Assembly: GCA_944326465.1 (NCBI GenBank)
Contig: CALVEB010000003.1
Location: 1-64,000, forward strand
Source: Candidatus Gastranaerophilales bacterium
Lineage (GTDB): Bacteria > Cyanobacteriota > Vampirovibrionia > Gastranaerophilales > Gastranaerophilaceae
Length of the DNA: 64,000 bases
Direction of reading: 5' to 3'
Of the stretch, positions 5,480-61,694 are shown one piece after another (the stretch's first letter is position 1; the number at the start of each line of letters is the position of its first letter). A model generated the notes under the pieces. The model was not told the origin of the DNA, made no database searches, and saw only the letters and a list, made by a program, of their open reading frames with translations. Position numbers and translations under genes: made by a program.

Positions 5480-5490
5480 AAGGGATAAAA

Positions 5491-17939: not shown

Positions 17940-17940
17940 T

Positions 17941-20495: not shown

Positions 20496-20501
20496 AATAA
20501 T

Positions 20502-23225: not shown

Positions 23226-23227
23226 TA

Positions 23228-23704: not shown

Positions 23705-23706
23705 CT

Positions 23707-25233
23707 TTATTTCTCCTTTATTGTTATTAATTGTTTATATTCTTCTTGTGCATATTCGATAAATGAAATTTTATAATTGTCTTCTTTTCCAAAATCTACA
23801 TTTATTTTAGCGTCATAATTTGTTATATTGTTTTGAACAAAAATTTCTTTTTCTTTTAGTTGTTCAATAAATATTTTAAACTCTTTATGAATATTTTTAT
23901 TATACTGAACCAAATTCTCTAATTCTTTTGAAATATTTTCAATAGAAACTCCATTTAATAAATTTTCATACAAATTAGTTGCAAATTTATTCATTGAATA
24001 AATTATCCCTATTTCTGTATTTAAAATATTAGCTAAATCAAACGTGATATCAACAGCGATTTTCGGAGTGTCAAGAATTTTATTTTCCATTGATTCAAAT
24101 TTATTCATAAATTCTCTTAAAAATTCTGTATTTTTATCAATGTTGTAACACAAATTAAATTTATAAAATGGCAAATTTTTAACCATATTCATGATTTTTT
24201 CAACTGTCTTATTTTCTGACATATCAGCGGTTTGAGATAGAGTAGATTGAATAATTTGAACAATTGCTCTACCTTTTTCCTCTTTTGTACAAGGTTTAAT
24301 ACTTGGTTCTTTATCTGAAACTATTTCTGGGAAAATACAAAGTTTGATAGGATAATTTTTCTTAAATCTATCATGATAATTTGAAATGTTAAATACATAC
24401 TTATCTTTTCTTGCATTGTTAGATACAAATTGTGAACCTTGCATATACCCATACAATCTATTATACATTTCTGGTGAAAGTGTGATTATTGAATAAATTG
24501 GGCTTGATAAAAGTTCTTTGTTTTTATTTTGATGCAAAATTAAATAATCATCAGAAACATATTCAAACCCTTTCATCATAGAAAGAACTGATAATGTAGA
24601 TTTACCTCTTTGACCTCTTGCACAGAAACAAATTCCATTATTATTATATCCAATAACTGCACCATGAACCAAGTTTGAAGTATCTGTTTTTAAAATATTA
24701 TTAAAAAATTGAACAAAAATATGACCTTCTTTTATAAATTCCTCTGGCTCAAGATTATTTACACCGTAATAATAAGTATGATTTTCTTTATTGTTTCCAA
24801 TAACAAATCCTCTTGATGTTTGAAAATCTATCATAGGTTTTGTTTTTGAAAAGTCTTTATCAAAAATCTGAGTAGCGTATTCATCTACTTCATTCTCCAG
24901 ACTTATCCCATGAGCTTTTCTAAAAACTTTTTCTAATTTTAATCGCATTCCCATTTTTGGAAATTTTGAAACCATATTTTTGGCAAATTTTAAAATCTCC
25001 TTTTCATTCCAAATAATAAGTGTATCATCAAAATGTTCAGCACTATCTTTTAAGACAAACGTTAGTTGTTTTTCAACAAGAGGTAAAAACTCATCGCTGT
25101 ATGAGATTAATTTTACAATTTTACACCCCAAATCAATATATTTAGTCCATTTTATTTCTTTTGTTTCTAAATATTTATCGATATTTGAATATATTTGATT
25201 TATTTCTTCTTTTGTTAAATCTTTAAATTGCAT
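23707..25233 (-). CDS. HPr-kinase-like protein with C-terminal PqqD domain
   Basis: The 508-residue protein is the full-length relative of the truncated gene at 5491-6339. It has a Walker A variant RGQRGKST (206-213), SDDY (227-230) and the HprK-like kinase region to about 370. Residues about 385-480 form a PqqD-like domain (VDITFDLANILNTEIGIIYS, then NKFATNLYENLLNGVSIENI). HprK-like kinases next to PqqD and nucleotidyltransferase proteins occur in peptide-modification and exosortase-type loci; lasso-peptide kinases phosphorylate a peptide C-terminus. Which substrate applies here is unknown. It starts 10 bases after the nucleotidyltransferase gene. Confidence 0.82.
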   Translation of the reverse strand: MQFKDLTKEEINQIYSNIDKYLETKEIKWTKYIDLGCKIVKLISYSDEFLPLVEKQLTFVLKDSAEHFDDTLIIWNEKEILKFAKNMVSKFPKMGMRLKLEKVFRKAHGISLENEVDEYATQIFDKDFSKTKPMIDFQTSRGFVIGNNKENHTYYYGVNNLEPEEFIKEGHIFVQFFNNILKTDTSNLVHGAVIGYNNNGICFCARGQRGKSTLSVLSMMKGFEYVSDDYLILHQNKNKELLSSPIYSIITLSPEMYNRLYGYMQGSQFVSNNARKDKYVFNISNYHDRFKKNYPIKLCIFPEIVSDKEPSIKPCTKEEKGRAIVQIIQSTLSQTADMSENKTVEKIMNMVKNLPFYKFNLCYNIDKNTEFLREFMNKFESMENKILDTPKIAVDITFDLANILNTEIGIIYSMNKFATNLYENLLNGVSIENISKELENLVQYNKNIHKEFKIFIEQLKEKEIFVQNNITNYDAKINVDFGKEDNYKISFIEYAQEEYKQLITIKEK

Positions 25234-25243
25234 AATTCTTCCT

Positions 25244-26434
25244 TTAATTGTGATAAATTCTGTTCAAATCTTTTATAAATATTTCAATTAATCTCGGATG
25301 TTTATTCAAATATTTAAGACTCTTATACTTTATTTTCAATTTTAAATATTCACTCCATGAGATTTTATTATTGAAAACTTCTTGTATCTTCATTGCTCTG
25401 GATTTGGCTTGTAATTCTACATAATAAAAATTTTTAAACATTATCATTCTTGAATAGTCATTTGTTTCTTTTTCAAATAAATATTTGCTTTGTAGTTCTC
25501 TAGGCAAAATATTTTCCGATATTTTGTTTATAAACTTCATTGCAAGATTTATTTGAACTTCAGCATTGGTTAATTTTGTATTCTCGATTACAATATTCCA
25601 GTTAAAATCAGGCTTATTTTCAAGTAAATATTTACAGGCAAAAATTGCATACAATAAATTTGCCTGTGTTTTATGCTCTCTCAAATTATTGGAAAGGTTA
25701 ACTAAAGTTATAAACATCAAGTCTTCAAAACAAGGTACTAGCGTCTTAACACCATACACTTCTTTTTCCATCGCTCTTTTAAATAAACCTTTTATCCATT
25801 TCTTTTCATTTTTAGAACCTATGTGGATAAATTTGTGAATGTCTAATATGCCGTAACTAGCATCCTTATTCTCTAAAATATCAAAAGAATGAATATCCAA
25901 TTTTTTAAAGTAATATCCGAGTGATTTTGCAATTTTTGCAGATTTAACCCATTGTTTTTCACAAACTAAAATATCAATATCTCCCATGTATCTCGGGAAT
26001 TTTGGGTTTAGATATCGCATTAAACCACCTTTAAATATTACAGGAATTATTCCTTGCTTATTTAATGCTCTTCCAATCTTTGTATAATGGGCAATTATTT
26101 GAAGATTAAAAAATCGTTGATGCTGTAAAAGACCTTTTAGCCGAGGTCCTTCATAATTTGTTGCATTTAGTTCAGGGTGTACTTTTAATAAATAGGCTAA
26201 TAATAAATTCTTAGCACCTTGTTTTGCTTCAATATCCCAATCCGCTAAAAGTTCCTCTAATTTATCTTGAGAAGGATTAGAGGATAATAATAAATCCATT
26301 AATACTTTTTCTTCTTTTCCCATTATTTCTTGATAGAAATTTTCAATTAAAGCATCAGAAATAGAAGTATCTCTTTTTAAATACCCCGACGAATTAATGT
26401 CATCAATTTCTTTTTTATATAAAAAAGTTTGCAC
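25244..26434 (-). CDS. Nucleotidyltransferase-fold protein (NTP_transf_5-like), phage copy
   Basis: The 396-residue protein is the paralogue of 4277-5479, aligned over its whole length including the N-terminal DTSISDALIENFYQEIM and EGPRLKGLL segments. The active-site signature is KGG (135-137) and DID (152-154). It is the first gene of the eight-gene leftward cargo operon and follows a good promoter at 26502-26529. Its conserved pairing with the HprK-like gene in both copies suggests that the two proteins act together. Confidence 0.8.
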   Translation of the reverse strand: MQTFLYKKEIDDINSSGYLKRDTSISDALIENFYQEIMGKEEKVLMDLLLSSNPSQDKLEELLADWDIEAKQGAKNLLLAYLLKVHPELNATNYEGPRLKGLLQHQRFFNLQIIAHYTKIGRALNKQGIIPVIFKGGLMRYLNPKFPRYMGDIDILVCEKQWVKSAKIAKSLGYYFKKLDIHSFDILENKDASYGILDIHKFIHIGSKNEKKWIKGLFKRAMEKEVYGVKTLVPCFEDLMFITLVNLSNNLREHKTQANLLYAIFACKYLLENKPDFNWNIVIENTKLTNAEVQINLAMKFINKISENILPRELQSKYLFEKETNDYSRMIMFKNFYYVELQAKSRAMKIQEVFNNKISWSEYLKLKIKYKSLKYLNKHPRLIEIFIKDLNRIYHN

Positions 26435-26546: not shown

Positions 26547-27011
26547 TTATAATTTCTTTATTTTTTCAATATATTTTACAGTTAAATTAATAATTTCTTG
26601 TTGATCTTCATCGGTAATTTTTAAATACGGTCTTGCAGGGATTTCAACAGATTTATTTTTGTCGACTTGACCTCCGAGTTGATGAATTGCCGCATACTCT
26701 AAATTTGATCCGACAACAGCAGAATCGTTATCGTAATATGTATTTATTGATGCGGCAAGTTTGCCTTCTACTTGCAAAATCTGTCCCGGCCATTTCCGTT
26801 TTTTAGTTCTCTGCTTTTTTGTTGATTCTGCCAAATCCAACCATTTGTTAGGTCTGCCCTCTTCTTTAAAATTCGCTTCAGTTGAATAAGAGAAAATACC
26901 TGCGATGTTTTTCATCAACGGTCGCAGGTTTTCTACTCTTTTTGCAATATCAAGTAATTTTTCTTGAACTATTCTATGTTCAAATTTTATTTCTATATTA
27001 TTCTTCGTCAT
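26547..27011 (-). CDS. Phage virion morphogenesis protein (Mu gpG-like)
   Basis: The 154-residue protein resembles the Phage_tail_S/virion morphogenesis family: GRPNKWLDLAESTKKQRTKK, a central YAAIHQLGG and the C-terminal PARPYLKITDEDQQEI. In P2 and Mu relatives this protein completes the tail or joins head and tail. It is the last gene of the leftward head operon and overlaps the preceding small gene by 14 bases. Confidence 0.85.
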   Translation of the reverse strand: MTKNNIEIKFEHRIVQEKLLDIAKRVENLRPLMKNIAGIFSYSTEANFKEEGRPNKWLDLAESTKKQRTKKRKWPGQILQVEGKLAASINTYYDNDSAVVGSNLEYAAIHQLGGQVDKNKSVEIPARPYLKITDEDQQEIINLTVKYIEKIKKL

Positions 27012-27351
27012 ATTTTATTTTAAAAACATAAGTTTCAATTAGAGAACCAGAAACTACAAATAATCGATTACTTCCATAATGTATTAAAATACCATTTTCA
27101 TTATCTAATTTTACAAAAATACTATTCCATTCAATACGTTCTGTAATTATTTCGTTATTTATTTTAGAAAGATTTTCTAAAATAAATATTCTATTCTGCT
27201 CATCAAAACTTGATTTTATCATTGGGAATCTATCCCATACTGTGTATTTTTTATAATTTTTTTCAATATATTCCACGATTTTACCATATGTACCATGATC
27301 TTCTTTGTATTTAAGCAAAAGATCAAATAGCCCTTCAGTTTTGTTATCCAT
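26998..27351 (-). CDS. Hypothetical phage protein, 117 residues
   Basis: I do not recognise this protein. It is 117 residues, soluble and mixed alpha/beta by appearance, with a strand-rich middle (ENGILIHYGSNRLFVVSGS). It starts one base before the methyltransferase gene ends and overlaps gpG, so it is probably a genuine part of the head operon rather than chance coding. Confidence 0.55.
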   Translation of the reverse strand: MDNKTEGLFDLLLKYKEDHGTYGKIVEYIEKNYKKYTVWDRFPMIKSSFDEQNRIFILENLSKINNEIITERIEWNSIFVKLDNENGILIHYGSNRLFVVSGSLIETYVFKIKYDEE

Positions 27352-27352
27352 T

Positions 27353-28165
27353 TTAACCTCCTTCTATTTGCATGCTTATTATATCATAATTGGCAATTAA
27401 AAGTTCCTTAAACATTTTATTGCGCTGTGTTCCCTCTCTGTTGTTGATTCCGTTTAATCTTTCAACCGCAATCATATCAAAGCCTTTGTATAATTCTCTG
27501 ATTTTAGGTGAATCGTCATAAGACAATAGAAAACGACCTTTGACCGCTCCTAAAACCTCTCTTAAACGCTCGTGGTCAAAATCTTTTGTTGATGTTACTT
27601 CATAACCACAACCTCTTGAATACGGAGGATCACAATAGAAAAATGCACCCTCGTGGTCGTATTGGTTAATTAGTTTTTCAAAATCACGACCTTCAATCAT
27701 TACAGTATCCAAACGCTCATGGATAGCCTCGATTTTTTTAGGAACATTGTGCAGGGATTTACAAGCACCGCCGGAAGTCTTTTTGACAGTTCCGAAAGTA
27801 TCACCACGACCGCCGAATGAACGAGTAATTAAAAAGTAAAACTGAACTGCTTTTTGAATATCTGTTATGAAAGTTCCGTTCAAGAATTGCAAAAACATCT
27901 CACGTGAGCCAAGTAAATGCCTCCATTCTTCAATAAAAGCATTAGGGTGGTATTTGACAATGCGGAACAGATTTACAAGTCTGCCATCGAGGTCATTATA
28001 GACTTCCAAATCTGCCCACTTGTCTTTATAAAACAACACCCAACCGCCTCCGCCGAAAGGTTCGATGTAGGATTTAATATCTTCAGGAATGAGTTTGGCA
28101 ATAGTTTTTCTCAATAATCTTTTTCCGCCAACCCAATTTATTAAACATTTTCTATCAATAGTCAT
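27353..28165 (-). CDS. DNA adenine-N6 methyltransferase (Dam/D12 class)
   Basis: The 270-residue enzyme transfers methyl from SAM to adenine. The SAM-binding motif is EPFGGGG (35-41) after WVGGKRLLRK, and the catalytic DPPY is at 179-182. No restriction partner is nearby, so it looks like an orphan phage methylase protecting phage DNA or altering host expression. It sits within the head operon, four bases overlapping the end of the MuF-like gene region, and would be expressed late. The recognition site cannot be inferred. Confidence 0.9.
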   Translation of the reverse strand: MTIDRKCLINWVGGKRLLRKTIAKLIPEDIKSYIEPFGGGGWVLFYKDKWADLEVYNDLDGRLVNLFRIVKYHPNAFIEEWRHLLGSREMFLQFLNGTFITDIQKAVQFYFLITRSFGGRGDTFGTVKKTSGGACKSLHNVPKKIEAIHERLDTVMIEGRDFEKLINQYDHEGAFFYCDPPYSRGCGYEVTSTKDFDHERLREVLGAVKGRFLLSYDDSPKIRELYKGFDMIAVERLNGINNREGTQRNKMFKELLIANYDIISMQIEGG

Positions 28166-28201
28166 AATTCAAACTCCTTTTTATTATTGTTCAAATGCCG
28201 T

Positions 28202-28963
28202 TTAATTACCTTCAATAAGACCGCTTGCAGGGTTATGACTCCACCCGACGTCAGGTGCGACACGTTTTCCTGTGAGAGGATCAGTATAAACTGTGACGGG
28301 TTTATACTCTCCCGACTTTTTAGAAACAAGAGCCAATTCCTCCGATAATGTGCCGGCTGAAGAACTGACCGTTCGTTGTTTCTTTTGCAGGTTGTAATCA
28401 GAGAGTGCATTTACTCTGCATCTGCACCTCCAACCGTTCGGAGGGTAAAAGCTCTTCCAAAACGGATCATCATATCTATAAATAAGTCCGTTTAACATTG
28501 CGTGTTCAGGTCGAGTCGAGGCATCCATAACCGCCACATATTCCCAATACGGTCTGTTATCCACATTCTCGTATTGAGTTTTATATCTTCCTGTTTGATA
28601 TGCCGTCTGCATATTAACCGAATAAATGGTTTTCAGGCGGTACATTGAGCCGAGCTGAACTTTTTCTGCGACACCTTCTGTATCAACGACTATCTGCTCA
28701 CCCCACCAACCTTTCTTTTGAAGAGTTGGTTTAAGTTCCTTTGAAAATTCTCGGAATGTTTTTCCCTCTGTAAGTGCTTTTTCAAGAGCAGAACGGATGT
28801 CTTTTAATATGTCCTCACGCATAGCTTTTGCTACTGTGAAAGATTTTTTATGAGCATCTTGCCATAATTCGTACCAGTCCCAAGTAAACTTATTGTTTTT
28901 GTTTTTAAAGTATTTAATAGCCATCGCAGGAGCGAGTTTAAATAATGATTTTAATTGAATCAT
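28202..28963 (-). CDS. MuF-like minor head protein
   Basis: The protein resembles Mu gp30/SPP1 gp7 minor head proteins: helical N-terminus, NMQTAYQTGRYKTQ, ASTRPEHAMLNG, then the C-terminal YPPNGWRCRCRVNALSDYNL typical of the family. I start it at 28963 (MIQLKSLF), where ATG overlaps the preceding TGA; the longer frame from 29020 runs into the neighbour. It is 253 residues and probably associates with the portal. Confidence 0.88.
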   Translation of the reverse strand: MIQLKSLFKLAPAMAIKYFKNKNNKFTWDWYELWQDAHKKSFTVAKAMREDILKDIRSALEKALTEGKTFREFSKELKPTLQKKGWWGEQIVVDTEGVAEKVQLGSMYRLKTIYSVNMQTAYQTGRYKTQYENVDNRPYWEYVAVMDASTRPEHAMLNGLIYRYDDPFWKSFYPPNGWRCRCRVNALSDYNLQKKQRTVSSSAGTLSEELALVSKKSGEYKPVTVYTDPLTGKRVAPDVGWSHNPASGLIEGN

Positions 28964-29913
28964 CAGTATTTTACCCCCAAGAAGTCTAAAACTCTGCCAC
29001 AGCCGAGAGTGTATATACAATAATCGTGCAACTTTGGATGTGTTTCTCTCATTTTTTCAAATTTATTCGGGGATTTTTCACGATGCACACCGAACATACA
29101 GAACATACATCCTGTACGATCAACCTTTGTAGTGCAATATTTTCCTTTACTATCTTGCAGGATATCGCCATAAACCGAGCAGTAAGGAACATCAAATTCT
29201 TTTATATACTGATAAATATCCTGTTCAGTCCAAAAACCAAGCGGAGTGGAAGCAGGACGATCTGAATTAAAAGAATTGCATCCTTTTTTAAGATATTCCG
29301 TTTTTCTTAAGTTACTTTCTGCCGCCATTGTTGCAATAAATGGTTTAAGTCCTGCTTCTTTCTCAAACTTCTTTGCAGGAGTCTTTTTCATAACCTGACA
29401 ACATTTAGCAGATATAGGAATGTCGCTATCTCGGAGGAATTGCCATTTTGCCATACAATAATGAGTGCCATATCTTTTTACATAATCGCTATTTGGATCA
29501 AACTTCTTTTTTGTATATCCGTCAGGATTCCTACGACTTTCTTCGATAACCTTTGCGACTTCTTTGCTAATAACAGGGTAGCCATATTTTTCCAACACTT
29601 CTTTGAATGTTATTTTAGGTCGGATTGTAATCGTGTTTTCGGTTTGTTTTACAAACTGTCTGACTTCAGGATATTCAAGTCCTGTGTCTACAAAAACAGC
29701 AGGAACTTCAGGATAAAGAGAACGGACAAGATGCAACAAAACTGTTGAATCCTTTCCGCCGGAGAAAGACACATAAACTTTGCCGTCAAAATGCTCATAA
29801 AATTGCTTAATTCTGTTTTTTGACAGTTCAATTTTTAAATGTAAAGGCAAACTCTGCCGTTGTTTTAAGAAGTTGCGTTTCATCGCATACTCTTCAGGGG
29901 AAATGGATGCCAT
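28963..29913 (-). CDS. Phosphoadenosine phosphosulfate reductase-like PP-loop protein
   Basis: The 316-residue protein has the ATP-pyrophosphatase P-loop SGGKDS (51-56) and the VFVDTGLEYPEV segment of the PAPS reductase family, plus several cysteines (CCQ near the middle; TGCMFCMFG near the end). Such genes are common in phages. Proposed roles include sulfur metabolism and, by similarity to DndC, DNA modification. Placing it between the portal and MuF genes is unusual for a metabolic enzyme and suggests action on the virion or its DNA. Confidence 0.85.
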   Translation of the reverse strand: MASISPEEYAMKRNFLKQRQSLPLHLKIELSKNRIKQFYEHFDGKVYVSFSGGKDSTVLLHLVRSLYPEVPAVFVDTGLEYPEVRQFVKQTENTITIRPKITFKEVLEKYGYPVISKEVAKVIEESRRNPDGYTKKKFDPNSDYVKRYGTHYCMAKWQFLRDSDIPISAKCCQVMKKTPAKKFEKEAGLKPFIATMAAESNLRKTEYLKKGCNSFNSDRPASTPLGFWTEQDIYQYIKEFDVPYCSVYGDILQDSKGKYCTTKVDRTGCMFCMFGVHREKSPNKFEKMRETHPKLHDYCIYTLGCGRVLDFLGVKY

Positions 29914-29915
29914 AA

Positions 29916-31349
29916 TTAATCCTCGTCAAGTCCATCTGCTCTACCCTGTAACTCACACAGGAATAAAGCCTTTTGTATCGTCTCTTCAAATTTTTTACTT
30001 TGCAGGTTCTTATCTGTGAGTAATTCAAAGGCTTCTTCGTAATTCTCACAGCTTTCAAATAAATCTATAAGTGGCGCAAGCATATTTTGAGATTGTTTAT
30101 TCAATTCGCCCTCTGTTATGAATTTATACAAATTCTCAATCTGTCCTTGTCCGGGGAGAAGATGTTCTTCTTGTTCGCTGAATTGTTTAAAATTAGGATT
30201 GATAGGAATAACATCTTCTCTGATGTCAAAGTCCTCTTCTTCCAAACCATAGGTTTTAATAAAATATTCCTTTGTAAATTTGACTCCTGTGTCAGAGAGG
30301 ATTTTATCTCGTTGAGCCAAAGTTAAATCAACATCTTCAGACTCGTAAAGTTCAAAAACAGGGACTTCTGCTTTTGCAAAATTGATTTCATAAATCCATT
30401 GAATTAACTGATTTACAGTCTTTTCAACCAGTTTTTTATCTGCATCAATGATGTCCTGTCTGACAGCCATATGCGTGTTTGATGCGGCATAACTTCCTGT
30501 CGCACCAATTTCAGTAGTAAGTGTTTGCCCAAGAATTGCCTTTGATATTTCTGAATTCATCTTATCTATTAGTTTTTCAAATATCTCAGCTGATGATGAT
30601 TTATTTGCCTCTTGAATTTCTACAGATGAATCATCAGGAATAACCGCAATGGCATCTTGGATCATCTCTTCTAATAAATCAGCAAGTTTATCTGTTTCTT
30701 CTTTTGTTGCGCCACGAGGGTGCTTGCCTATAAGGTGAGGGATTCCGTATTTTTCTGTAAATACTACCCAAAATTTAAGACCACCTTTTTTAAATGTTAC
30801 CGGCCAAAAAACACGAGAAAGAACTCTTTCCCCATAAGGGTTGTCGTAACTTGGATTATTTTGAGGACATAAGAACTTTTTAGGAGGTAATTCTTCTCCC
30901 CAATAGTGTTCTTTAGTTCTGAATTTTAAAAGATTCTCCTCATCAAAACAGAACCATTCAGAAGGTTTTGCTTTTAATTCAAGTGGTAAAACGTAATTGC
31001 CAACCTTACCCCACATAATCTCTATGGGTTGAAAACCGAATAATGTCGCATCTAAAATGTCATTAATTAGTTTATGAATATCAATTTTTTTTAGGACATC
31101 TTCAACCAATTCAGCATCTTTTGCTTTATCCAATCCTCTATTAATCTCCCATTCAAGAGATAAAACACCTGATTTTCTTGATTGAATACAAGCAAAAACG
31201 TGTGGATCACAAAATAATTCCCTATAAATTTTTACATCTTTGCCTTGCTTGCGCAGAACGATGTCGGGATCGGGTAAGTATGAACCTAATGAATAAAAAT
31301 TTATACTTCTTTTTCGAGTTGCAATTTCATCTGATAATTTTTTAGCCAT
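29916..31349 (-). CDS. Portal protein (Mu gp29, DUF935)
   Basis: The 477-residue protein matches the Mu gp29/DUF935 portal family: DPHVFACIQSRKSGVLSLEW near the N-terminus, FGFQPIEIMWG, a central TEKYGIPHLIGKHPRGATKE and ILGQTLTTE. It forms the ring through which DNA enters the capsid. It lies between terminase and the PP-loop gene, two bases from the latter. Confidence 0.92.
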   Translation of the reverse strand: MAKKLSDEIATRKRSINFYSLGSYLPDPDIVLRKQGKDVKIYRELFCDPHVFACIQSRKSGVLSLEWEINRGLDKAKDAELVEDVLKKIDIHKLINDILDATLFGFQPIEIMWGKVGNYVLPLELKAKPSEWFCFDEENLLKFRTKEHYWGEELPPKKFLCPQNNPSYDNPYGERVLSRVFWPVTFKKGGLKFWVVFTEKYGIPHLIGKHPRGATKEETDKLADLLEEMIQDAIAVIPDDSSVEIQEANKSSSAEIFEKLIDKMNSEISKAILGQTLTTEIGATGSYAASNTHMAVRQDIIDADKKLVEKTVNQLIQWIYEINFAKAEVPVFELYESEDVDLTLAQRDKILSDTGVKFTKEYFIKTYGLEEEDFDIREDVIPINPNFKQFSEQEEHLLPGQGQIENLYKFITEGELNKQSQNMLAPLIDLFESCENYEEAFELLTDKNLQSKKFEETIQKALFLCELQGRADGLDED

Positions 31350-31463
31350 AATTTTTCCTTTTAGGGTGATGTTAAATGTTCGTTAAAACCTTTTTAAATT
31401 CTTTTAATTTTAATTTTTAGGGGTTGGTGTAATAACATGTGAGTCAAAATAATTTAAGAGCCC

Positions 31464-32804
31464 TTAAAAGCCATTTACGAGTTTTAAGGTTTCAAATTTT
31501 TGTCGGGATGAAATATGTATCTCTCCAGTTCCGTTTCCGGCGGCGTGCAGAGCAAGAGCCAATGCCCAAAAGCGGTCAGCGTGTCCGTTGTCTGAACGGT
31601 CAGCATCAAAACGGATATTGTTTGCAGTTGTTGTTATTCTGCGAATTGAGTGTAAGTCCTCTCTAATTTCGTGTTGTTTAGGAATAAAGACTGTTCTGTC
31701 TTCAAAGTGTGTGCGTAAGCAATAAGCCAGTTCCTCTTTAACTCGATTAGTGAACATAATCGGCTCGACTCTATATTTGCCGAATTTTATTTGTGCATTT
31801 TCAGATAATTGCATCCCGATCCCGGTTGAATCAGGACAGCATCTTCTGAACGGTTTGCAGGATAACACTTCAGATAAAATCTCTTCTTGTTTATGAAATG
31901 GCATTTTAACCAGTTCAATAACACTTCGGGTGTATAAAATATTTTCTAATTTTTCTAACACCCAAATTACAGTTAAATCCTTTTTACGACCGACATCCAT
32001 TCCGATAAACATATCGTTTTTGATTTCAGATAACGGTCTTAAAATATCATCTAACTCGCAGGTTGAAATAAGGTCATAAGGTAAAAATGCACAAGCCTCA
32101 TCAACGGCTATACAACAATATTCTTGCAACCAAGTGTATTCATCAAAACAGTTGTCTTTTTCATTTTGAATCCAAGCATCACGTTCTTCCCGAGTTGTTT
32201 TTCTTTGAAGAATTTTATCAACAAGACCTTCATCTACAGCAAGTTGAATTGGCGTTTTATGATGTGACCAGTTTAATTTACCCTTAACAACTTGATCTAT
32301 AAACTTATAATATAAGCAGTTTTGACCATTGTGCGTAGACAATATTCTCAAAGGATAACCCCAAGTTATACAAGGGCGTGCCGCTTTCCAAAGTTCATCG
32401 GGGTTATTATGAAATGCAAATTCATCTAATACTACTTTGCCACCTTTAGAACGGAAAGCTTTAGGGTTAGATGAAAGAGCGTGTATTTTTGTGCCGTTTT
32501 TAAATTCAATAACAAATGCTTTTATATCTTTATCGCTATCAATAACCTGTTCCCCCCTACTTTTTGCTACTGCGTGGAAAAATTTAACCCATTTTTCACA
32601 GTAATCAATATATTCTTTTGCGGCAGATTCATCAGCAGAAGAAAACCAAACAGCAGGGACTTTTTTATTAATACAATCCTGAACATCCTCAAAACTTTGA
32701 ACATAAGTCGCACCGATACGGCGTGACTTCTCCCATATTTTTATCTTTGATTTATCATTTAGCCATTTCATTTGATACGGCAAAAAATACTCGTTATTCG
32801 TCAT
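31464..32804 (-). CDS. Terminase large subunit (Mu gp28-like)
   Basis: The 446-residue packaging motor has an ATPase half with KIWEKSRRIGATYVQ near residues 22-36 (adenine and Walker-type region) and VWFSSADESAAKEY. The nuclease half starts at GMDVGRKKDLTVIWVLEKL, with metal-binding aspartates. This matches Mu gp28. An 114-base gap separates it from the portal gene. It overlaps the small terminase gene by 11 bases. Confidence 0.92.
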   Translation of the reverse strand: MTNNEYFLPYQMKWLNDKSKIKIWEKSRRIGATYVQSFEDVQDCINKKVPAVWFSSADESAAKEYIDYCEKWVKFFHAVAKSRGEQVIDSDKDIKAFVIEFKNGTKIHALSSNPKAFRSKGGKVVLDEFAFHNNPDELWKAARPCITWGYPLRILSTHNGQNCLYYKFIDQVVKGKLNWSHHKTPIQLAVDEGLVDKILQRKTTREERDAWIQNEKDNCFDEYTWLQEYCCIAVDEACAFLPYDLISTCELDDILRPLSEIKNDMFIGMDVGRKKDLTVIWVLEKLENILYTRSVIELVKMPFHKQEEILSEVLSCKPFRRCCPDSTGIGMQLSENAQIKFGKYRVEPIMFTNRVKEELAYCLRTHFEDRTVFIPKQHEIREDLHSIRRITTTANNIRFDADRSDNGHADRFWALALALHAAGNGTGEIHISSRQKFETLKLVNGF

Positions 32805-33216
32805 ATTTGATTCCTAAGAAGGTTTCGTTAATTTCTTTTATAAATTCAGGGGTAATTTCTTTGTTTTGAGTGCTTTCTTCTTTTTGAGATACATTATCCT
32901 CATATGATTTAACTTTGTTTATCATAGGAAGCAGTTTTGTAAAAGCAAACATTCTACCGGGATCAATTTTTTCATTATTGTCCAAGTCCAATTCAATTGA
33001 TGTCATAAGTTTTCTTGCAAAATTATAAAGTTCTTCATGGAACATCTGTTTTGAATTTAAATATTGCTCTCTTTTGTAGTCCCATTTGAATTCATCTTTC
33101 CATCTACGGATGGTTCTTTCATTAACACCTACTCTTTGTGCAACATCTTCAATCAACATTTGCTCGACTACATAAAGTCTCTCTGCATTTTCAAGAAAAA
33201 CATCTCGTTTATTCAA
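32794..33216 (-). CDS. Terminase small subunit (Mu gp27-like, DUF1804)
   Basis: The 140-residue protein opens with a helix-turn-helix (EDVAQRVGVNERTIRRWKDE) and WDYKREQYL, as in DUF1804 small terminase subunits of Mu-like phages. It probably recognises the packaging site and recruits the large subunit. The rest is helical and ends in a short acidic tail. Confidence 0.85.
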   Translation of the reverse strand: MNKRDVFLENAERLYVVEQMLIEDVAQRVGVNERTIRRWKDEFKWDYKREQYLNSKQMFHEELYNFARKLMTSIELDLDNNEKIDPGRMFAFTKLLPMINKVKSYEDNVSQKEESTQNKEITPEFIKEINETFLGIKYDE

Positions 33217-54281: not shown

Positions 54282-54953
54282 GTGGCAGATTTAATTTCAG
54301 TTGTTATACCAACATATAATGGTGAAAAGTACATAAAAGATTGTATAGAAAGTATTCAATCACAAGACTTTCCACACGAAATAATAGTGATTGACGATAT
54401 ATCAACAGATCGTACGGTAGAAATAGCTCGTTCTATGGGGTGTAGAGTAATAGTAAATACTGAACATAAAGGACAAATGGCAGGTAAAAACACCGGCATA
54501 AGAGAAGCAAAAGGGAATTATTGGTTGACTATAGATCAGGATGACATGCTCGTTAATAATGCTCTACAAATGCTTTATGATGAAATGCAAAAAGACTTGA
54601 GTTATCAAATAGTTATGGCTCAATTAAAGAATTTCTGTTCTCCAGACACTCCTCAACAAGCAAAATTTGTCAATCCGAAACCATTTACCAATATATTGAC
54701 AGGATCAACTCTGTTTAAAAAAGAAGTATTTAACACAATCGGTTTTTTTAGAGAAGATACTATCACTGGGGATGTTATCGATTTAAGGGAACGTTTAGAG
54801 AAAAATGGTTTAACAATCCACATGGTAAATTTCATTACATGTAATCGTAGAATTCATGAAACGAACTATGGCATTACGAACCAAGCCGATGAATATAAAG
54901 ACTATGCAAAGATATTAAGAGATAAAATTAAAAACCGTAAAATCGGTGTTTAA
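54282..54953 (+). CDS. Small family 2 glycosyltransferase
   Basis: The 223-residue protein is a minimal GT-A transferase: LISVVIPTYNGEKYIKDCIE, VIDDISTDRT near residue 36 and DQDD at 85-88. Its C-terminal third is clearly related to the fragment at 61437-61694 (NRRIHETNYG versus NRRIHTSNFG; EYKDYAKILRDK versus EFKDYAKSLRDR). It has its own promoter and a GAGGAA ribosome site. It converges with the second module's last gene with a four-base overlap, so whether it belongs to the phage, the second module or the host is open. Confidence 0.85.
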   Translation: MADLISVVIPTYNGEKYIKDCIESIQSQDFPHEIIVIDDISTDRTVEIARSMGCRVIVNTEHKGQMAGKNTGIREAKGNYWLTIDQDDMLVNNALQMLYDEMQKDLSYQIVMAQLKNFCSPDTPQQAKFVNPKPFTNILTGSTLFKKEVFNTIGFFREDTITGDVIDLRERLEKNGLTIHMVNFITCNRRIHETNYGITNQADEYKDYAKILRDKIKNRKIGV

Positions 54954-56491
54954 CAAGCTTTTGCTAATATATCAAAGTCTTTATCTAACTCTTTTTGAAA
55001 TAAGAAGTTAAATCTCATTTCAAAATCGTATAAATTCTTATATCCTAAGTTTTTACATATAACATTCATTGGTACATTTTTATCTAATAGCAATTTTACA
55101 TGGGTATTTAATAAGACTGTAGAGTCATCCATATCTACATTTTCATAAATTACTCCAGTGCCTTTTTTGTCTAACATATCAAGCAATATTGGGTGTAATT
55201 TAAGAGTCCTTATTGCGTGAAGGTGGAAATATTTTCTAAATCGGGTTTTTTGATAAATTTTATCTATTTTGACAGTCCCTTCTTTAAAATTAATATCGTT
55301 GTAATTTAAAGCGGCTAGCTCTTGTGGGGATATACCTAAACAAATAGTCCATAACTTTGGCGATTTTTCGCTTATTAATTTATTAATCTCTTTAATAGAT
55401 AAGCATTCTTGTTCTCTAATGGGCAATATTTTCTTAAATTTAAAAATAGCAACATTGTTTGTATCCATATATTCTTTATAAATATGATTCAGAATATTCA
55501 TCATACATCTCACAGAAGCTATTGAATAACCCTCTGATATTTTTATATCTTGAAAGTCTTCAGCCATATTCTGAGATATATCTTTTAATTCAGTATCTTT
55601 AAAATAAGGGATTAAATGAGTTTGTAAAAAACTAAAACTACCTTCCGAGTGTCTTTCTTTCATAAATTTATGTGCTGCATCAATAAATTTCATTGTTTTA
55701 AAATCAATATTTTCTGTTTCCATAGAGGCATATTTATTACTGTTATATATTTCAGGTGAAGGATTCCTTTTTGTTAAAATATATTCCATTGAGTATTTTT
55801 TCTTTAAGTATTTGCTCATAGTTATATCCGCAGGAATATCAACAGGATCGAACTCTTTTTCTAATAGTTTAATACAATGTTGATACGAATATCGTTTCGG
55901 ATTTAAATATAGGTTTTCAAATTTATTAAGAACTTCTTGTGAAAATCTTTTGGGCGGAAGATAACCCTCTCTCGGAACAAAAGCATTTATTCCTTCAAGT
56001 CTATATGCTCTGTTTTTTGCAACAACTGTTTCAGGAGCACATTTTAAAGCAGGGTATTGATTTGAAATATCCCTAACTTTCTTATATAAAGTTTTTCCCA
56101 TAAGATTTGTTGTAGCCTTATATAAAATATAGTATTTGATAACATTCCGTTTTTGGATAGCGTTTAAATTATTGAAGTGTTCTATTTCTGTTTTTTTATC
56201 AAAAAATAGACACGGATCAATTGTTTTTAAACTTAAATTATTTAAATCTCCATTACAATTGTTTTTTACCCAGTTATCAAAATTAACTTTCTTTTTTGAT
56301 ATGGTTGGTTTTGAGGATACCTTTTTAATAGAATAATGTTTCTCTGAAGTTTGAATTATAAATTTTGTATCTAGCAGTTCTTTTAAGATTTCTTGTAGAG
56401 TTTCTTCATTGTCGCATTCTGTCATTGTTTGAATTTCATCAAAAGTAAAATCTTTTAAACTTTTAATTATTCTAATTAGTTTTTGTTTCAT
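54950..56491 (-). CDS. MuA-like DNA-binding region fused to an inactive tyrosine-recombinase-like domain (paralogue 1)
   Basis: The 513-residue protein has an N-terminal winged-helix-like domain (1-57). Residues about 100-240 resemble the end-binding HTH region of Mu-type transposases (YRLEGINAFVPREG; LYLNPKRYSYQHCIKLLEKE). A SAM-like core-binding domain (about 268-345) and a tyrosine-recombinase-like catalytic fold (about 363-500) follow. The first catalytic arginine is replaced by S388 (LGISPQELAAL instead of GLR), the HxxR region reads LLNTHVK, and the nucleophile position is F494. The protein thus looks unable to cut DNA. It ends the leftward four-gene module. A regulatory or target-selecting role is inferred. 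Confidence 0.75.
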   Translation of the reverse strand: MKQKLIRIIKSLKDFTFDEIQTMTECDNEETLQEILKELLDTKFIIQTSEKHYSIKKVSSKPTISKKKVNFDNWVKNNCNGDLNNLSLKTIDPCLFFDKKTEIEHFNNLNAIQKRNVIKYYILYKATTNLMGKTLYKKVRDISNQYPALKCAPETVVAKNRAYRLEGINAFVPREGYLPPKRFSQEVLNKFENLYLNPKRYSYQHCIKLLEKEFDPVDIPADITMSKYLKKKYSMEYILTKRNPSPEIYNSNKYASMETENIDFKTMKFIDAAHKFMKERHSEGSFSFLQTHLIPYFKDTELKDISQNMAEDFQDIKISEGYSIASVRCMMNILNHIYKEYMDTNNVAIFKFKKILPIREQECLSIKEINKLISEKSPKLWTICLGISPQELAALNYNDINFKEGTVKIDKIYQKTRFRKYFHLHAIRTLKLHPILLDMLDKKGTGVIYENVDMDDSTVLLNTHVKLLLDKNVPMNVICKNLGYKNLYDFEMRFNFLFQKELDKDFDILAKAC

Positions 56492-56513
56492 ATTTGTTTC
56501 CTTTCTTATTGAA

Positions 56514-58064
56514 TTAATACATCCCTTTCAAAATATCTACTTGAGGTTCTTCATTGTCTAGTAAAAATCCGTATCTTGATATAAACATATCTAGATTTTT
56601 TAACCCAAGTTTTTTATAAATTATGTGTATTGAAACGTTATTATCGAGCATTAATTTAACATATGTGTTTTGAAGTACATTTGCATTAGTTATGTCTAAT
56701 GATTCATAAATTAATCCCTCTATTCGACCTTTATCAAGTAAATCTATTAAAAGAGGGTGTAATTTTAAAATTCGCATTTGATATAATTCTCTATGTAATC
56801 TTATGCTCCTGTTACAAAATGTCCTATTTATGTGGACACTTTGATTAGAAAAATCAATCATTGAATAATCAAGAGCAACGAGTTCCTGTAAGGATATTCC
56901 CAATAGTAAAATCCATAATCCTGCCGACTTATTCTTTATTAAATCTTTGATTTCTTGTTCATTTAAAACCTCTGTCTCCAAAATGGGTAATAGTTTATTT
57001 GATTTTAGCATTAGTGGATATTTCATACCCGTATAACATAATAGAATACTATTCAAAGTTGTTATCACACTTTTAATGGTTCCTATTGCTAGTCCTTCTT
57101 TTAACATTTCTGACTGAAATTTCATTGCAAGTTCAGGTGTTATATCGTCAATATTATAATCTCCAAAAAACGGTATAATATGTCGTCTTATAGAACAAAT
57201 TGAAGCCTGAGATAAATTTTGTCTTTCCATATAATCCAAAGTAAATTTGTAAAAAAGTTTGTTTGGCAGTGATTTGGCAGTTCTATTGATATCATAAAAT
57301 TTATTAATAATTTCTTTTGGACTATTTTTTCTCTTCGCAAGAAGCTCTTCAGGTGTGTACTTTGAATTCATATACCGGCTTAAAGTTGCTGATGTTGGGA
57401 CAAATTCTTTACCATATTTAGTTTTTAATATCGCAACACAATGTTTATATGAATATTTATCTGAGGATAAATACATTTTTTCAAATTCATCAAGAATTTC
57501 TTGTGGGTATCTTCTAACATTCTTATCAATATGGTCTTTCTTTAAGAATGCATCTATACCCCTTTGTTTAAAATGTCTTTTCTTGGCGATAAAACCTGAA
57601 TATGATATTTTCAAATCAGGATTTATTTTACTTATATCAAATAAGAATTGAGCTAACTCTCTCCCGGAATAAGTACTTGCTAATTTCATTAATGAATAAT
57701 TACGAACTATGTTAGCTTTGCTTTCATCGTTTGCTTCTTCGTAGATTTTTCCATACGTTTCGTCATCAAAAAACGTAACCGGATTTATTTTGTTAAAATT
57801 TATATTTTTTATGTCTCCTTTAAAGTTTACGCTCAACCATTTATTTACGTTAGGATTTACTTTTATGTGATTTTTATTTAATTTTTTCTCTAAATCACCA
57901 ATAAAAGCATACATGTTGATCCCAATTTCTTTAATCATTTTTTGCGAATCTAATTGTTTTAGGAATAAATCTAAATCAAATGAGTCGTTTTCTAAAACTG
58001 ATAACAAATCCTCTTTTTTAAATGTCTTTAGTGTCTTGATTAATTTCAATAGTTTCTGCTTCAT
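56514..58064 (-). CDS. MuA-like DNA-binding region fused to a degenerate tyrosine-recombinase-like domain (paralogue 2)
   Basis: The 516-residue protein has the same layout as its neighbour and is clearly its duplicate (MKQKLLKLIKTLK versus MKQKLIRIIKSLK). The Mu-type segment is best seen at 154-235 (SYSGFIAKKRHFKQRGIDAF; LDEFEKMYLSSDKYSYKHCV), which parallels residues about 130-180 of the MuA-like protein at 11740. In the recombinase-like half, S391 replaces the first catalytic arginine (LGISLQELVAL) and the HxxR region reads NVLQNTY, but Y498 remains near the nucleophile position. It overlaps the ATPase gene by 47 bases and is 22 bases upstream of paralogue 1. Confidence 0.75.
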   Translation of the reverse strand: MKQKLLKLIKTLKTFKKEDLLSVLENDSFDLDLFLKQLDSQKMIKEIGINMYAFIGDLEKKLNKNHIKVNPNVNKWLSVNFKGDIKNINFNKINPVTFFDDETYGKIYEEANDESKANIVRNYSLMKLASTYSGRELAQFLFDISKINPDLKISYSGFIAKKRHFKQRGIDAFLKKDHIDKNVRRYPQEILDEFEKMYLSSDKYSYKHCVAILKTKYGKEFVPTSATLSRYMNSKYTPEELLAKRKNSPKEIINKFYDINRTAKSLPNKLFYKFTLDYMERQNLSQASICSIRRHIIPFFGDYNIDDITPELAMKFQSEMLKEGLAIGTIKSVITTLNSILLCYTGMKYPLMLKSNKLLPILETEVLNEQEIKDLIKNKSAGLWILLLGISLQELVALDYSMIDFSNQSVHINRTFCNRSIRLHRELYQMRILKLHPLLIDLLDKGRIEGLIYESLDITNANVLQNTYVKLMLDNNVSIHIIYKKLGLKNLDMFISRYGFLLDNEEPQVDILKGMY

Positions 58065-58746
58065 TTTTCATTACCTCCTTAAGTAGTATTTCATCAATTG
58101 AGTTTAATCCGTTTGATTTTGCAAATAATTCAGCCTTATTTAACAACTTAACTATTTGTCTGAATCTTTTAATATATGTGTAAATATATTTGATGGCACA
58201 ATCTGTCATTTCGACTTCGGATAATTCTTTTACTATGAGTTTAATGTCCTCTTTTGAGAACATTTCAAACTTGATTATTTCAGACAACCTGTCATACAAA
58301 TGCTTAAATTTTTTGAGTCTTGATTTTGCACTTGTCATACCAATTAAAACTAAAGGGACATTCGTTCTATCATGAATGTCCCTTAATGTCTCAACGGATC
58401 TTGAATCTATTGTTAAATACTCAATTTCATCAACCATAAGCACCTGTGGTTTTAGGATTAAATTTTTGATTACCTGATTAAAACAATCAGATGTTGTATA
58501 ACTTGGAATTTCTCCCATATTGTCCAAGATTTCACTTAATAACCATCTTGATGACATTTGCTGATTACACCTGATCAAAAGGGCATCATTTTTAAAAGCC
58601 CACCAATTTACGGTTTGGGTTTTTCCCAGTCCGGGTTCTCCATAGACAAGTCCCATGCCGGGGACACCTTCAGGGCGATTTTGTAAATTATTCATCATCG
58701 TAATGAATTTTTTTACATTGTTTGTTTTTACAAAAACTTTTCTCAT
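58018..58746 (-). CDS. MuB/TnsC/TniB-like transposition ATPase (second module)
   Basis: The 242-residue AAA+ protein has Walker A GEPGLGKT (36-43), Walker B VLMVDEIE (102-109) and a sensor-like LVLIGMT. It lacks the N-terminal HTH of the phage MuB-like protein. Position after a MuA-like gene indicates that it activates that transposase and selects targets. It starts 11 bases after the transposase stop and overlaps the next gene by 47 bases. Confidence 0.88.
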   Translation of the reverse strand: MRKVFVKTNNVKKFITMMNNLQNRPEGVPGMGLVYGEPGLGKTQTVNWWAFKNDALLIRCNQQMSSRWLLSEILDNMGEIPSYTTSDCFNQVIKNLILKPQVLMVDEIEYLTIDSRSVETLRDIHDRTNVPLVLIGMTSAKSRLKKFKHLYDRLSEIIKFEMFSKEDIKLIVKELSEVEMTDCAIKYIYTYIKRFRQIVKLLNKAELFAKSNGLNSIDEILLKEVMKNEAETIEINQDTKDI

Positions 58747-58757
58747 TCTTCTCCTTT

Positions 58758-60833
58758 CTACTTATAGATTTCTTTATATTCATTTGACTGTATGTAACTT
58801 GCTAACCATAGTCGGTCTTCTTGGTTTATGCACCCATTTTGCATATGCCATTCATATCTTTCATAATTGCTATTAAAATATGGTCGTGCGGCAGGTGAGG
58901 ATGAGTGAACCACAGGGATAAACTTTTTATCTTTTACTAATTCTTGTTCTGTAGTTTGACCAAGTTCTGCACTTTTTAGTGGTCGTTCTCCCATATCTTC
59001 TATTAATTCTTTTTCAATTAAATCTATGTCTTCAATATTAAAATATTCTTTTACGGCTTTTATTGTTTTTCGTCTTAACGAAGCTTGTTTTTGAATTTTA
59101 TGTTTATAATCCTCTATGTCTTTAATGTCTCCCATTTGATTAGCGAGGGGGTGTGTTTCGGTTACTCGATGGGCTTTGCATATAAACTCTCCTCTAAGTG
59201 AATACACTTTAATCGAAGTTAAGTCGAATAAACTGTATTTAATTATTGTTTTTTCTCTAATTCCGTATAAAGCCTCATCAAAGTAGTCGGCTTTTAAAAA
59301 TCTTATTCCGTTTCTGCCTATACTTTTTATTTCTTGAGCCATCATCAAATCATCTAATTGTGACTCATCAATATTCTGAGGTTCAATTTCATTTAATACT
59401 TCTTGAATTGTTTTCCCTGTATCATTAGTGCATGGTTGGGAATGTTTAAATTTGAGCCATTTATCAATAAATTTTATTGTTTGTTCTATAGTTGGGATAA
59501 AACTATTCTTTTCGTGTATAGCCTTATGTAATTTTTCGTTTCTTTTCATGTAGGCAGGTTTAGATTCGATACTTGTTCCTATATAACTTGGCATTAATTT
59601 TTCAAAGCTCTCTTGAAAATCTAAAAAGAAACGCTCGATGACTTTTGCACGAGCGTTATATGGAGTAGCATAGACTGGTTTTATTCCGAGTTTTTGATAA
59701 ATCCCTGTAAATCCTAATTCTTCAAATTTATCATCTCCGTTAAAGAACTTACTTTTAAAAGCTCTTCCATTATCTTGGTAAACAAAATCAGGGATATGAT
59801 CCATTTTTAAAATGGCATTTCTTAATGCAGATGCAATATTTTGAGTACATTCTTCTAGCATAATGTCATAGCCGACAAGTCCACCTGAACGCCAATCTAG
59901 GAATCCAAGTAATGTGGCTCTACAAGGTTTCCCTGTGAAAGGATTGATTACCTGAAAATTTAAAGTGTGTCCATCTGCGATTAATACCTGTCCCGGCTTT
60001 AATAAAGCGGCATTTCTTACTATATATGGTTCAACCTTATCCTTTAAAGCTTTCTGCCCTTCTCGCGCAAGAACCCACTTGTCGTAATTATTGTCACGAA
60101 ACCAGTCTGCATATCTTCTAAAGGTAACATCTTTGGGGAGTATTTCAACTCCACGTTCTCGTAATATTTGTTTTGTAAGGCTTATGGATTTGCCGATTGA
60201 AAAAGCGTTTGGGGATAAAAGTATTTTTAAAAAAATCTTTATTTGTTCCTCATTTAATCTTGTTCGAATCTCTCCTCGTCTTACATAATTATATTGACCA
60301 ACTAAAGCTGTCCAATCATATTTATATTCGAGTAGCCCTTTCCATCTATATAGAGATGCCGAACAAACTTTGCCTAATGTTTTATATAATTCTTCTAACA
60401 AGACTCCTGTATTGTATAGTTCCAAAAATCTCTCATCAGCATTTTTACCAATTTTAATCTTTTGCTTTTTATATTTCTTTTTGAAATCTAACCAATTCAA
60501 AACTAAATCGTATTTTGCTAATGCGAGTTTCTTTTGATTTTCTGTAATAAGTTTTTCTTGTTTGATATTGAGATTTTTAAGTTCAATAATTTCATTATCT
60601 ACACAACTCAAATCATAATATTCTTGAATGTACTTTACCTGAAGATGTTCTTCTAAACTGTTCAATTTAATCTTGTATGCTTTTTTACCTTTTATTTTTT
60701 CTGTCTTATATATATATTTATGTATGGATATTCTTACAGCTCTGTTGGTAACATTTTTCAATTTTGCAACAGTTTCGACATCTACCCATATTTCATCTCT
60801 TTTTATTTTGTCTAAAATATCGCTGTATTCCAT
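58758..60833 (-). CDS. MuA/TnsB/TniA-like DDE transposase (second module)
   Basis: The 691-residue protein has an N-terminal Mu-type DNA-binding domain (EIWVDVETVAKLKNVTNRAV), HTH end-binding region (about 190-245; LNEEQIKIFLKILLSPNAFS), RNase-H core and a Mu-type C-terminal domain. The likely catalytic triad is D287 (IADGHT), D354 (YQDNGRAF) and E400 (KVIERFF). The ATG follows AAAGGAGG by 5 bases. It is only distantly similar to the phage transposase, so this is a second, independent transposition system. No TnsA-like endonuclease or TniQ-like protein is present. Confidence 0.92.
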   Translation of the reverse strand: MEYSDILDKIKRDEIWVDVETVAKLKNVTNRAVRISIHKYIYKTEKIKGKKAYKIKLNSLEEHLQVKYIQEYYDLSCVDNEIIELKNLNIKQEKLITENQKKLALAKYDLVLNWLDFKKKYKKQKIKIGKNADERFLELYNTGVLLEELYKTLGKVCSASLYRWKGLLEYKYDWTALVGQYNYVRRGEIRTRLNEEQIKIFLKILLSPNAFSIGKSISLTKQILRERGVEILPKDVTFRRYADWFRDNNYDKWVLAREGQKALKDKVEPYIVRNAALLKPGQVLIADGHTLNFQVINPFTGKPCRATLLGFLDWRSGGLVGYDIMLEECTQNIASALRNAILKMDHIPDFVYQDNGRAFKSKFFNGDDKFEELGFTGIYQKLGIKPVYATPYNARAKVIERFFLDFQESFEKLMPSYIGTSIESKPAYMKRNEKLHKAIHEKNSFIPTIEQTIKFIDKWLKFKHSQPCTNDTGKTIQEVLNEIEPQNIDESQLDDLMMAQEIKSIGRNGIRFLKADYFDEALYGIREKTIIKYSLFDLTSIKVYSLRGEFICKAHRVTETHPLANQMGDIKDIEDYKHKIQKQASLRRKTIKAVKEYFNIEDIDLIEKELIEDMGERPLKSAELGQTTEQELVKDKKFIPVVHSSSPAARPYFNSNYERYEWHMQNGCINQEDRLWLASYIQSNEYKEIYK

Positions 60834-61436
60834 TCATACCTCCTTTAAGCATTCGTATGTTAAACTGAAGTCTTTAAATTTGGAAGTCTATTTATGGGAA
60901 ATGTGTTGTTTTGTGTCTGTAAAATAAATCAAAAAATTTTTTCAATTACCTGTTTTTTTAAAATTTCAATTACCTGAGCATTAAATTATATAAATTTTTA
61001 CCCAAAACTTTAAATATGTAGGAAATTTACACTAATAATGCTTCCATAAAAGATTTTAATTGGGTATAAATATATTTTAAGGAATGATTTTAGAGTACAA
61101 AACAATTACTCAATCTTTCGGAAATGTGTTTCCCCTTAATACGGCTAAAGTAGAGTTATATCTTCCCTTAAGACAATTTCCCTATTATTGGGAAGTTGGA
61201 TTTTAAGTAATTGAAACAAAATTTAATGTTAATTGACAGAATGCTCTATTTGTGCGATATTTAGGCATGTTGTTTATATCATCAAAGTATTTTCTAATGA
61301 CAAAAAGTGGACAAACTGGACACGATTACCTTGTCTAACCACAATTTAAGGGAAGTGCCTGAAATATAAACATAGTGCGGAAAGGCGGTATAATTGTTCA
61401 ATTACTTTTTGGTTAATATGTCCGAAGAAACGATAA
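60834..61436. other. Non-coding probable end region of the second module
   Basis: No gene is seen in these 603 bases. They hold several copies of a CAATTAC core: TTCAATTACCTG at 60941-60952 and 60965-60976 (24 apart), CAATTAC near 61103, GTAATTGAA at 61207-61215 and TTCAATTAC at 61398-61406. They also hold TTTCCCCTTAA (61129-61139) and TGGACAAACTGGACA (61308-61322). This is the expected place for the promoter and transposase-binding sites upstream of the second transposase. The right limit is set by the broken glycosyltransferase at 61437. Confidence 0.5.
61406..61426. repeat. Candidate terminal inverted repeat, right
   Basis: TTTTTGGTTAATATGTCCGAA is an imperfect inverted match of the left-hand TTGGACAGCAAAATTAACCAAAA at 6362-6384: GGACA and ATTAACCAAAA are shared, with a three-base difference in between. 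It lies 10 bases from the broken glycosyltransferase, as the left copy lies near the broken kinase gene. Confidence 0.35.
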
Positions 61437-61694
61437 TTGATACGCAAAAATGTTTTTGATATTATTGGGGATTTTGATGAGCAGGTTACAGCCGGAGAGA
61501 TTTTAGACTGGCAAACAAAAATGAAAAAGTATAATCTCAAAATCAAAAAGCTTGATTTAGTTTCAACAAACAGACGAATACATACTTCAAATTTTGGAAG
61601 AACGCAGCAAAAAACAGAATTTAAAGATTACGCAAAATCTTTACGCGATAGACTAAATATGATAAAAAACAAAATTAAAGATAAACCATCTTAA
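61437..61694 (+). pseudogene. 5'-truncated small glycosyltransferase
   Basis: Only the last 85 codons remain (IRKNVFDIIGDFDEQ to the stop), aligned with residues about 143-223 of the transferase at 54282-54953. A stop codon lies directly before it and there is no ribosome site or true start. The missing 5' part is replaced by the non-coding end region, so the gene was most likely broken by the mobile DNA. It lies directly before a radical SAM gene on the same strand. Confidence 0.75.

Follow-up and report, generated by a model that had tools for sequence, protein, structure and literature searches.

We describe here a window of 64,000 nucleotides (the whole stretch of DNA that was analysed), part of a Candidatus Gastranaerophilales genome whose contig we label G000:C3, in which two chimeric proteins, X1 and X2, are encoded behind A2, a MuA-like transposase, and B2, a MuB/TniB-like ATPase. 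X1 and X2 probably bind DNA without catalysis and select the target for a Mu-type transposition system. At the level of the X family, target choice by X is well supported: elements with short forms of X are placed 3' of transfer RNA (tRNA) or transfer-messenger RNA (tmRNA) genes and the identity of the RNA gene follows the X tree, which together make X most likely the target selector.

The four genes form one tight operon on the minus strand in the order A2, B2, X1, X2. A2, the first gene (58758-60833), is a MuA-like DDE transposase by its matches to phrog_310 (8.7e-92), PF09299, PF09039 and rve; its catalytic residues D287/D354/E400 are conserved in the family alignment, and its PDB matches are MuA (4fcy) and TnsB. 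B2 (58018-58746), a MuB/TniB-like AAA ATPase (PF13401, PF05621, phrog_296), has intact Walker motifs in the alignment, with GEPGLGKT as Walker A, and its gene overlaps that of X1 by 47 base pairs (bp). X1, the third gene (56514-58064), is a chimeric protein of 516 amino acids (aa), characterized by its open reading frame (ORF), profiles, a structural model and Foldseek, while X2 (54950-56491; 513 aa) is, from its ORF and sequence alignment, a paralog with 35-36% identity to X1. The first-pass annotation of this DNA had placed both frames in one operon with a MuA-like transposase and a MuB-like ATPase; the ORFs and their coordinates are real, they follow directly on B2 and A2, and profile matches bear out the identity of the two partners.

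X1 and X2 each combine a winged helix, a predicted MuA-type end-binding region and a tyrosine-recombinase half. In X1 this half (residues 265-505; 56550-57272, minus strand; assigned from profiles, the model and Foldseek) matches PF14659 (1e-7) and the phrog_1 integrase (2e-11), and X homologs match PF00589 (best 9e-20). A PDB search with the lone X1 sequence gave nothing meaningful and the family profile was needed for matches, which are then the XerC-like 4a8e (5e-11) and other recombinases. The AlphaFold model of X1 has a pLDDT of 79 overall, mostly above 88 at residues 371-490, and its best structural matches in Foldseek are Tn1549 Int, XerA, IntI and Cre. The active site, on the other hand, has decayed. 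Box I reads GIS(L/P)QEL, with the first catalytic arginine (Arg I) replaced by S391 in X1 and S388 in X2, neither protein retains the HxLRH box, and the nucleophile position holds Tyr in X1 (SRYGF) and Phe in X2 (MRFNF). Across the family, T, S, K, N and the like stand at the Arg I position in every full-length X homolog aligned, and some homologs retain degenerate HxLRH boxes of the LRD or NELRH forms; an active control integrase from the same bacterial order (L118:1274-2656) has GLR in box I. Judged by sequence and model, X1 and X2 have the fold of a tyrosine recombinase and lack the Arg I and HxLRH of an active one. The loss of catalysis that had been claimed for both proteins is thus borne out, and the two checks proposed along with it agree: structure prediction shows the recombinase fold in X1, and a profile search with a survey of homologue neighbourhoods found the A2-B2-X operon conserved and no full-length aligned X with Arg I.

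Pattern searches of IMG/VR and of genome contigs with X1 as a single protein returned no match. An alignment of the conserved B2, used as query in Gastranaerophilales genomes and IMG/VR, yielded 80 + 20 loci, and the A2-B2-X operon is conserved, with about 80 loci in Gastranaerophilales and several contigs in IMG/VR. X is modular in this set, in that the N-terminal winged helix is constant and the part behind it varies. The long form carries a Mu region and recombinase (about 510-595 aa) and also occurs as a tandem pair, as in the window, at L065, L066, L067 and L100; other forms carry a Mu region without the recombinase half (about 240-250 aa), only the core-binding domain of the recombinase (about 165-205 aa), both its core-binding and catalytic domains (about 364 aa), or a different C-terminal DNA-binding-like part resembling a helix-turn-helix (414 aa). 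In two Mu-like phages from IMG/VR (L127, L131) the third gene encodes only a winged helix of 90-100 aa. The core-binding region is common to X1 and short X (BLASTP 1e-6), short X is present in 125 of the 383 Gastranaerophilales genomes sampled (about a third), and X frames stay open in distant taxa.

Placement of the elements provides the first line of evidence for target choice. Many loci of the first sample have, according to ARAGORN, a same-strand tRNA gene just upstream of A2. An independent sample was drawn from the 383 genomes by short X, consisting of the winged helix and the core-binding domain, and contained 54 elements with an X of 121-205 aa and enough flank. Forty-six of the 54 have a tRNA or tmRNA gene immediately upstream on their own strand, and none (0/54) has one on the opposite strand; the corresponding count is 0/16 for elements with a sibling X type of about 260 aa (Fisher p 3e-10). 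The A2-side end motif starts a median of 70 bp 3' of the tRNA, and in most tRNA-adjacent elements the gap from tRNA to A2 is only 310-600 bp. Elements whose X has the Mu region but no recombinase half are beside tRNA or tmRNA genes in 4/7 cases. Since tRNA 3' ends are classic integrase targets, an ordinary tyrosine integrase could be what places the tRNA-adjacent elements, with X as a decayed passenger, and four of seven long stretches examined indeed carry a small recombinase gene with Arg I (179-187 aa). We regard this as very improbable: the other three stretches hold no other recombinase gene, among them those of G174 (at tmRNA) and G197 (at tRNA-Asp); the site lies some 70 bp past the tRNA and not inside it; A2 keeps its DDE residues; and X frames are open across distant taxa.

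The second and strongest line of evidence for X reading the target is the co-variation of RNA-gene identity with X, which is correlational. Mapped on the tree of the X core-binding domain, RNA-gene identity requires 16 changes versus 29.0 ± 1.4 when shuffled (0/2000 shuffles as low), compared with 26 changes on the A2 tree (88/2000) and 27 on the B2 tree (292/2000). When X sequences more than 80% alike were removed, leaving 18 rows, X still required fewer changes than shuffled data (11 versus 13.7; 12/2000), and these 18 rows gave no RNA-gene identity signal for A2 or B2. The same observations bear on a further possibility, namely that X acts chiefly to regulate or repress transcription of the early operon, with the parts from integrase and transposase serving as generic DNA-binding modules. 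The X winged helix does resemble TrmB/MarR/Lrp-type regulators in the family profile, and the third gene can be reduced to this domain, as in the two phages above; however, a regulator predicts neither same-strand placement 3' of tRNA nor a tRNA identity that follows the X tree, and the A1 module described below already has an S24/CI-type repressor, so that we consider this role improbable.

Under target selection by X, which we favour, A2 would perform strand transfer while the B2 ATPase would carry the target signal and recruit A2. X would bind the chosen DNA site through modules taken from a tyrosine recombinase and from a second MuA-type transposase, and, by analogy with TnsF, TnsD and TniQ, would deliver B2/A2 to the bound site. 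We infer that binding by X is the cause of the tRNA-side placement; contact with B2 would also be expected, perhaps via the N-terminal winged helix, and the long X1 and X2 would select targets likewise.

Several observations weigh against this reading. First of all, long-X elements are beside a tRNA in only about 2/13 cases of the first sample (L049, L095), re-sampling gave only the same two, and long-X and 414-aa-X elements have varied flanks. Second, the window element itself interrupts a glycosyltransferase gene, a single case (n=1). Third, a single X clade is found beside tmRNA, Ser, Lys and Arg genes, so that the relation of X to tRNA is not one to one. Finally, target-site duplications could not be established by motif scans and inverted-repeat searches. 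Two broader proposals did not survive as first framed: one X type per tRNA is weakened by the clade that uses several RNA genes, and homing of all A2-B2-X elements to tRNA genes was dropped, given 0/16 for the X of about 260 aa, about 1/11 for the 414-aa X and about 2/13 for the long X. The first-pass annotation had listed choice of the target among the possible roles of X1 and X2; this is well supported for the family, by its tRNA/tmRNA sites and the RNA-gene identity that tracks the X tree, with X1 and X2 themselves as candidates for the same role.

The predicted MuA-type end-binding (I-beta/I-gamma-like) region of X1 covers residues 100-245 (57330-57767, minus strand; phrog_310, X profile and hhalign). 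The phrog_310 transposase profile matches X1 residues 115-253 (1.6e-4) and 17/24 X family members (best 1e-11), PF09039 (Mu I-gamma) matches 9/24, and the X1 region aligns to the A2 family by hhalign with an E of 1.2e-5; the Mu-type helix-turn-helix region that had been noticed in X at first pass is thereby upheld. The window encodes a second MuA-like transposase, A1 (11737-13680, plus strand; PF02914, PF09039, PF09299), and a profile of the X middle region matches residues 76-221 of A1 with 89 bits; two further A1-type transposases reach 91-99 bits, and A2 has -2 bits. A related X consisting of winged helix and Mu region matches A1-type transposases at E ~1e-15 in the search of 383 genomes. 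Homology of this predicted region to the MuA end-binding region is far beyond chance, and the difference between 89 and -2 bits implies that it came from a transposase other than A2. The view that the Mu-type part of X is a duplicate of its own A2 was dropped on the same scores. As far as its sequence tells, X has three sources, an integrase and the end-binding region of another Mu-like transposase being combined with a winged helix.

This origin leaves room for X1 and X2 possibly recognising A1-type ends, as partner or as target. The module of A1 further includes, by gene assignment, the MuB-like B1 (13690-14568, plus strand) and a Mu gp16-like gene (14639-15133, plus strand), as well as the S24/CI-type repressor. 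The A1-B1-gp16 and A2-B2-X-X modules flank the whole prophage region in the window and in G044:C79, both facing inward, with the prophage body oriented opposite relative to the two modules; A1 and A2-B2-X also face inward in G236:C8, G175:C20 and G248:C6, on stretches of 14-23 kilobases (kb), and are adjacent in L032, L097, L133, L134 and L137. X could thus be an end-bridging adaptor, a role that the first-pass annotation had also raised, that binds A1-type ends, with A2/B2 using, pairing with or competing for the far A1 end. The A1-like and not A2-like character of the Mu-type region, and the opposite ends or adjacent positions taken by the two modules in these loci, both favour such a role. 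It is nevertheless unlikely in our estimate: many X proteins with the Mu region are on contigs without A1 nearby (in fragmented assemblies), the X forms that have the Mu-type region and no recombinase half suggest site choice by their position beside tRNA or tmRNA genes, and short X lacks the Mu-type region, with no A1 detected in the short-X stretches examined. Doubtful to a similar degree is a combined arrangement, in which the prophages would be mobile elements with two complete and different MuA/MuB systems, one per end, and X1 and X2 would couple both, the A1-derived domain sitting on A1-type ends and the dead recombinase half reading the target and setting the insertion site.

The outer end of the window element, TATCGTTTCTTCGGACATAT (61416-61435, minus strand), is an end motif common to related A2-B2-X elements, and comparison with the sister genome G003 puts the junction of element and host at about 61431-61437. 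Beyond it lies the 3' remnant of a host family-2 glycosyltransferase gene (61436-61693, plus strand), which is intact in G003 (91% DNA identity). The 5' half of this gene was not found in its own genome; hence either the event was more than a simple insertion or the flank has since disappeared. Neither motif scans nor inverted-repeat searches of the window gave a clear answer on the other (left) terminus or a 5-bp target duplication. Upstream of A2 (60834-61415), the motif CAATTACCT/CAATTACTT occurs four times, in both orientations, and probably marks transposase-binding sites; other elements have their own repeated motifs there. A complete glycosyltransferase family 2 gene (54282-54953, plus strand; PF00535 1e-29), convergent with X2 with a 4 bp overlap, is probable cargo. 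Mu-like head, tail and lysis genes sit between the two transposition modules, as a head block (26547-33216, minus strand) and a protease-capsid-tail-lysis block (33928-54167, plus strand), their Mu-homologous genes being partly assigned by inspection. Between the A1 module and the head genes is a glycosyltransferase/radical-SAM cluster (15852-26434, minus strand) whose first genes are homologous to host genes at 4277-5479 and 5467-6339 (plus strand), the latter of which is truncated at 6339; the prophage may thus carry an alternative surface-modification cluster. A similar pattern is seen in a distant family, at L026 (G044:C79; 1353-1781 and 17229-18590), where the element end has a truncated Wzz-like chain-length-determinant gene and a polysaccharide cluster inside the prophage contains a full-length Wzz-like one.

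Other features recur around related elements. The window's own genome has at least three further loci of A2-B2-X type (G000:C14:47935-48411, G000:C11:27457-27951 and G000:C51), one of them 3' of tRNA-Met, one with the X type of about 260 aa, and the third with B2 and a short X ahead of an A1 transposase on a 3.7 kb contig. All elements with the X of about 260 aa (L237-L255) have a small opposite-strand gene upstream of A2, an ORF of 88-135 aa with the core MKKELRKQIELLEQKMSKSPNN..ITGERYN... Just outside the A2-side end, five elements (L054, L071, L074, L079, L087) adjoin a HipB/HipA-like pair with about 80% DNA identity, which could be either a shared target or a co-mobile module. At the left ends of L080, L051, L054, L104 and G075 the A2-side end motif stands in tandem, in two or three copies, which looks like what remains of earlier elements at this site. 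The small tyrosine recombinases of 179-187 aa (GLRxxD ... HSSPSITLRYIG), which are without a core-binding domain and recur in the G000C14, G046, G060 and G075 stretches, are possibly resolvases. In G174, genes for Hachiman (HamA, HamB) and type I restriction-modification and a Fic gene come after the tmRNA-adjacent element, the kind of cargo that a defence-carrying transposon of Tn7-like type would have, although no distal end could be located; further along this stretch (L265:14998-18105) is a type II Cas9 gene, cargo or host, adjoined by ORFs of Cas1- and Cas2-like size.

Phage Mu has one transposase and inserts nearly at random; we know of no recombinase-derived third protein in it. A1 and A2 are MuA-like, B1 and B2 MuB-like, and the window has Mu-like head and tail genes, but a single prophage region here has two MuA/MuB sets, one of them followed by X1 and X2. 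Target choice by X suggests that Mu-type machinery, known for near-random insertion, may be site-directed, and since X varies modularly while A2 and B2 are nearly constant, the steering of a Mu-type transposase and a change of site by exchange of one domain become testable. With phage and integrative and conjugative element tyrosine integrases, X shares the core-binding and catalytic fold and the tRNA-gene sites; it differs in having no Arg I (in all full-length homologs aligned), a degraded HxLRH and, in short X, no catalytic domain, and in the presence of a DDE transposase. Tn7-like and CRISPR-associated transposon elements that home 3' of tRNA genes are similar in their fixed-side insertion downstream of the tRNA and their defence cargo, as with the Hachiman and type I restriction-modification genes beside tmRNA in G174, whereas the proposed selector here is derived from a tyrosine recombinase and not TniQ/TnsD or Cascade, and the transposase and ATPase are Mu/TniB-like, without TnsA.

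The closest parallel is TnsF of Tn6022 (Faure et al. 2023), an inactivated tyrosine recombinase acting as target selector, whose removal impairs transposition into comM and which binds comM DNA and TniQ (PMC10293859). The domains of TnsF are zinc fingers at the N terminus, two core-binding domains and part of a catalytic domain, and it works via TniQ with TnsA (PMC10293859). In our literature search, which scarcely covered subscription papers and preprints, only this paper joined target selector, tyrosine recombinase, tRNA and transposon. The first-pass annotation had known of no described system with such parts: the parts do differ from those of TnsF, yet TnsF (PMC10293859) is a precedent for a dead-recombinase selector. 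X too contains a tyrosine-recombinase domain that is inactivated, and shares its operon with a DDE transposase and an AAA ATPase; it has, on the other hand, a winged helix and often a MuA-type region but no zinc fingers, its sites are tRNA/tmRNA genes (short forms) or a glycosyltransferase gene (window) instead of comM, and the A2-B2-X operon is without the TnsA of the TnsF system. Inspection of the A2-B2-X operon revealed no TniQ, and a PF06527 search of the window's own genome was silent, as was its control. X probably works like TnsF, yet is not a member of TnsF as defined, and, if our reading is true, would represent a second lineage, apparently without TniQ, of DDE transposons that have adopted the DNA-reading part of an integrase for site choice.

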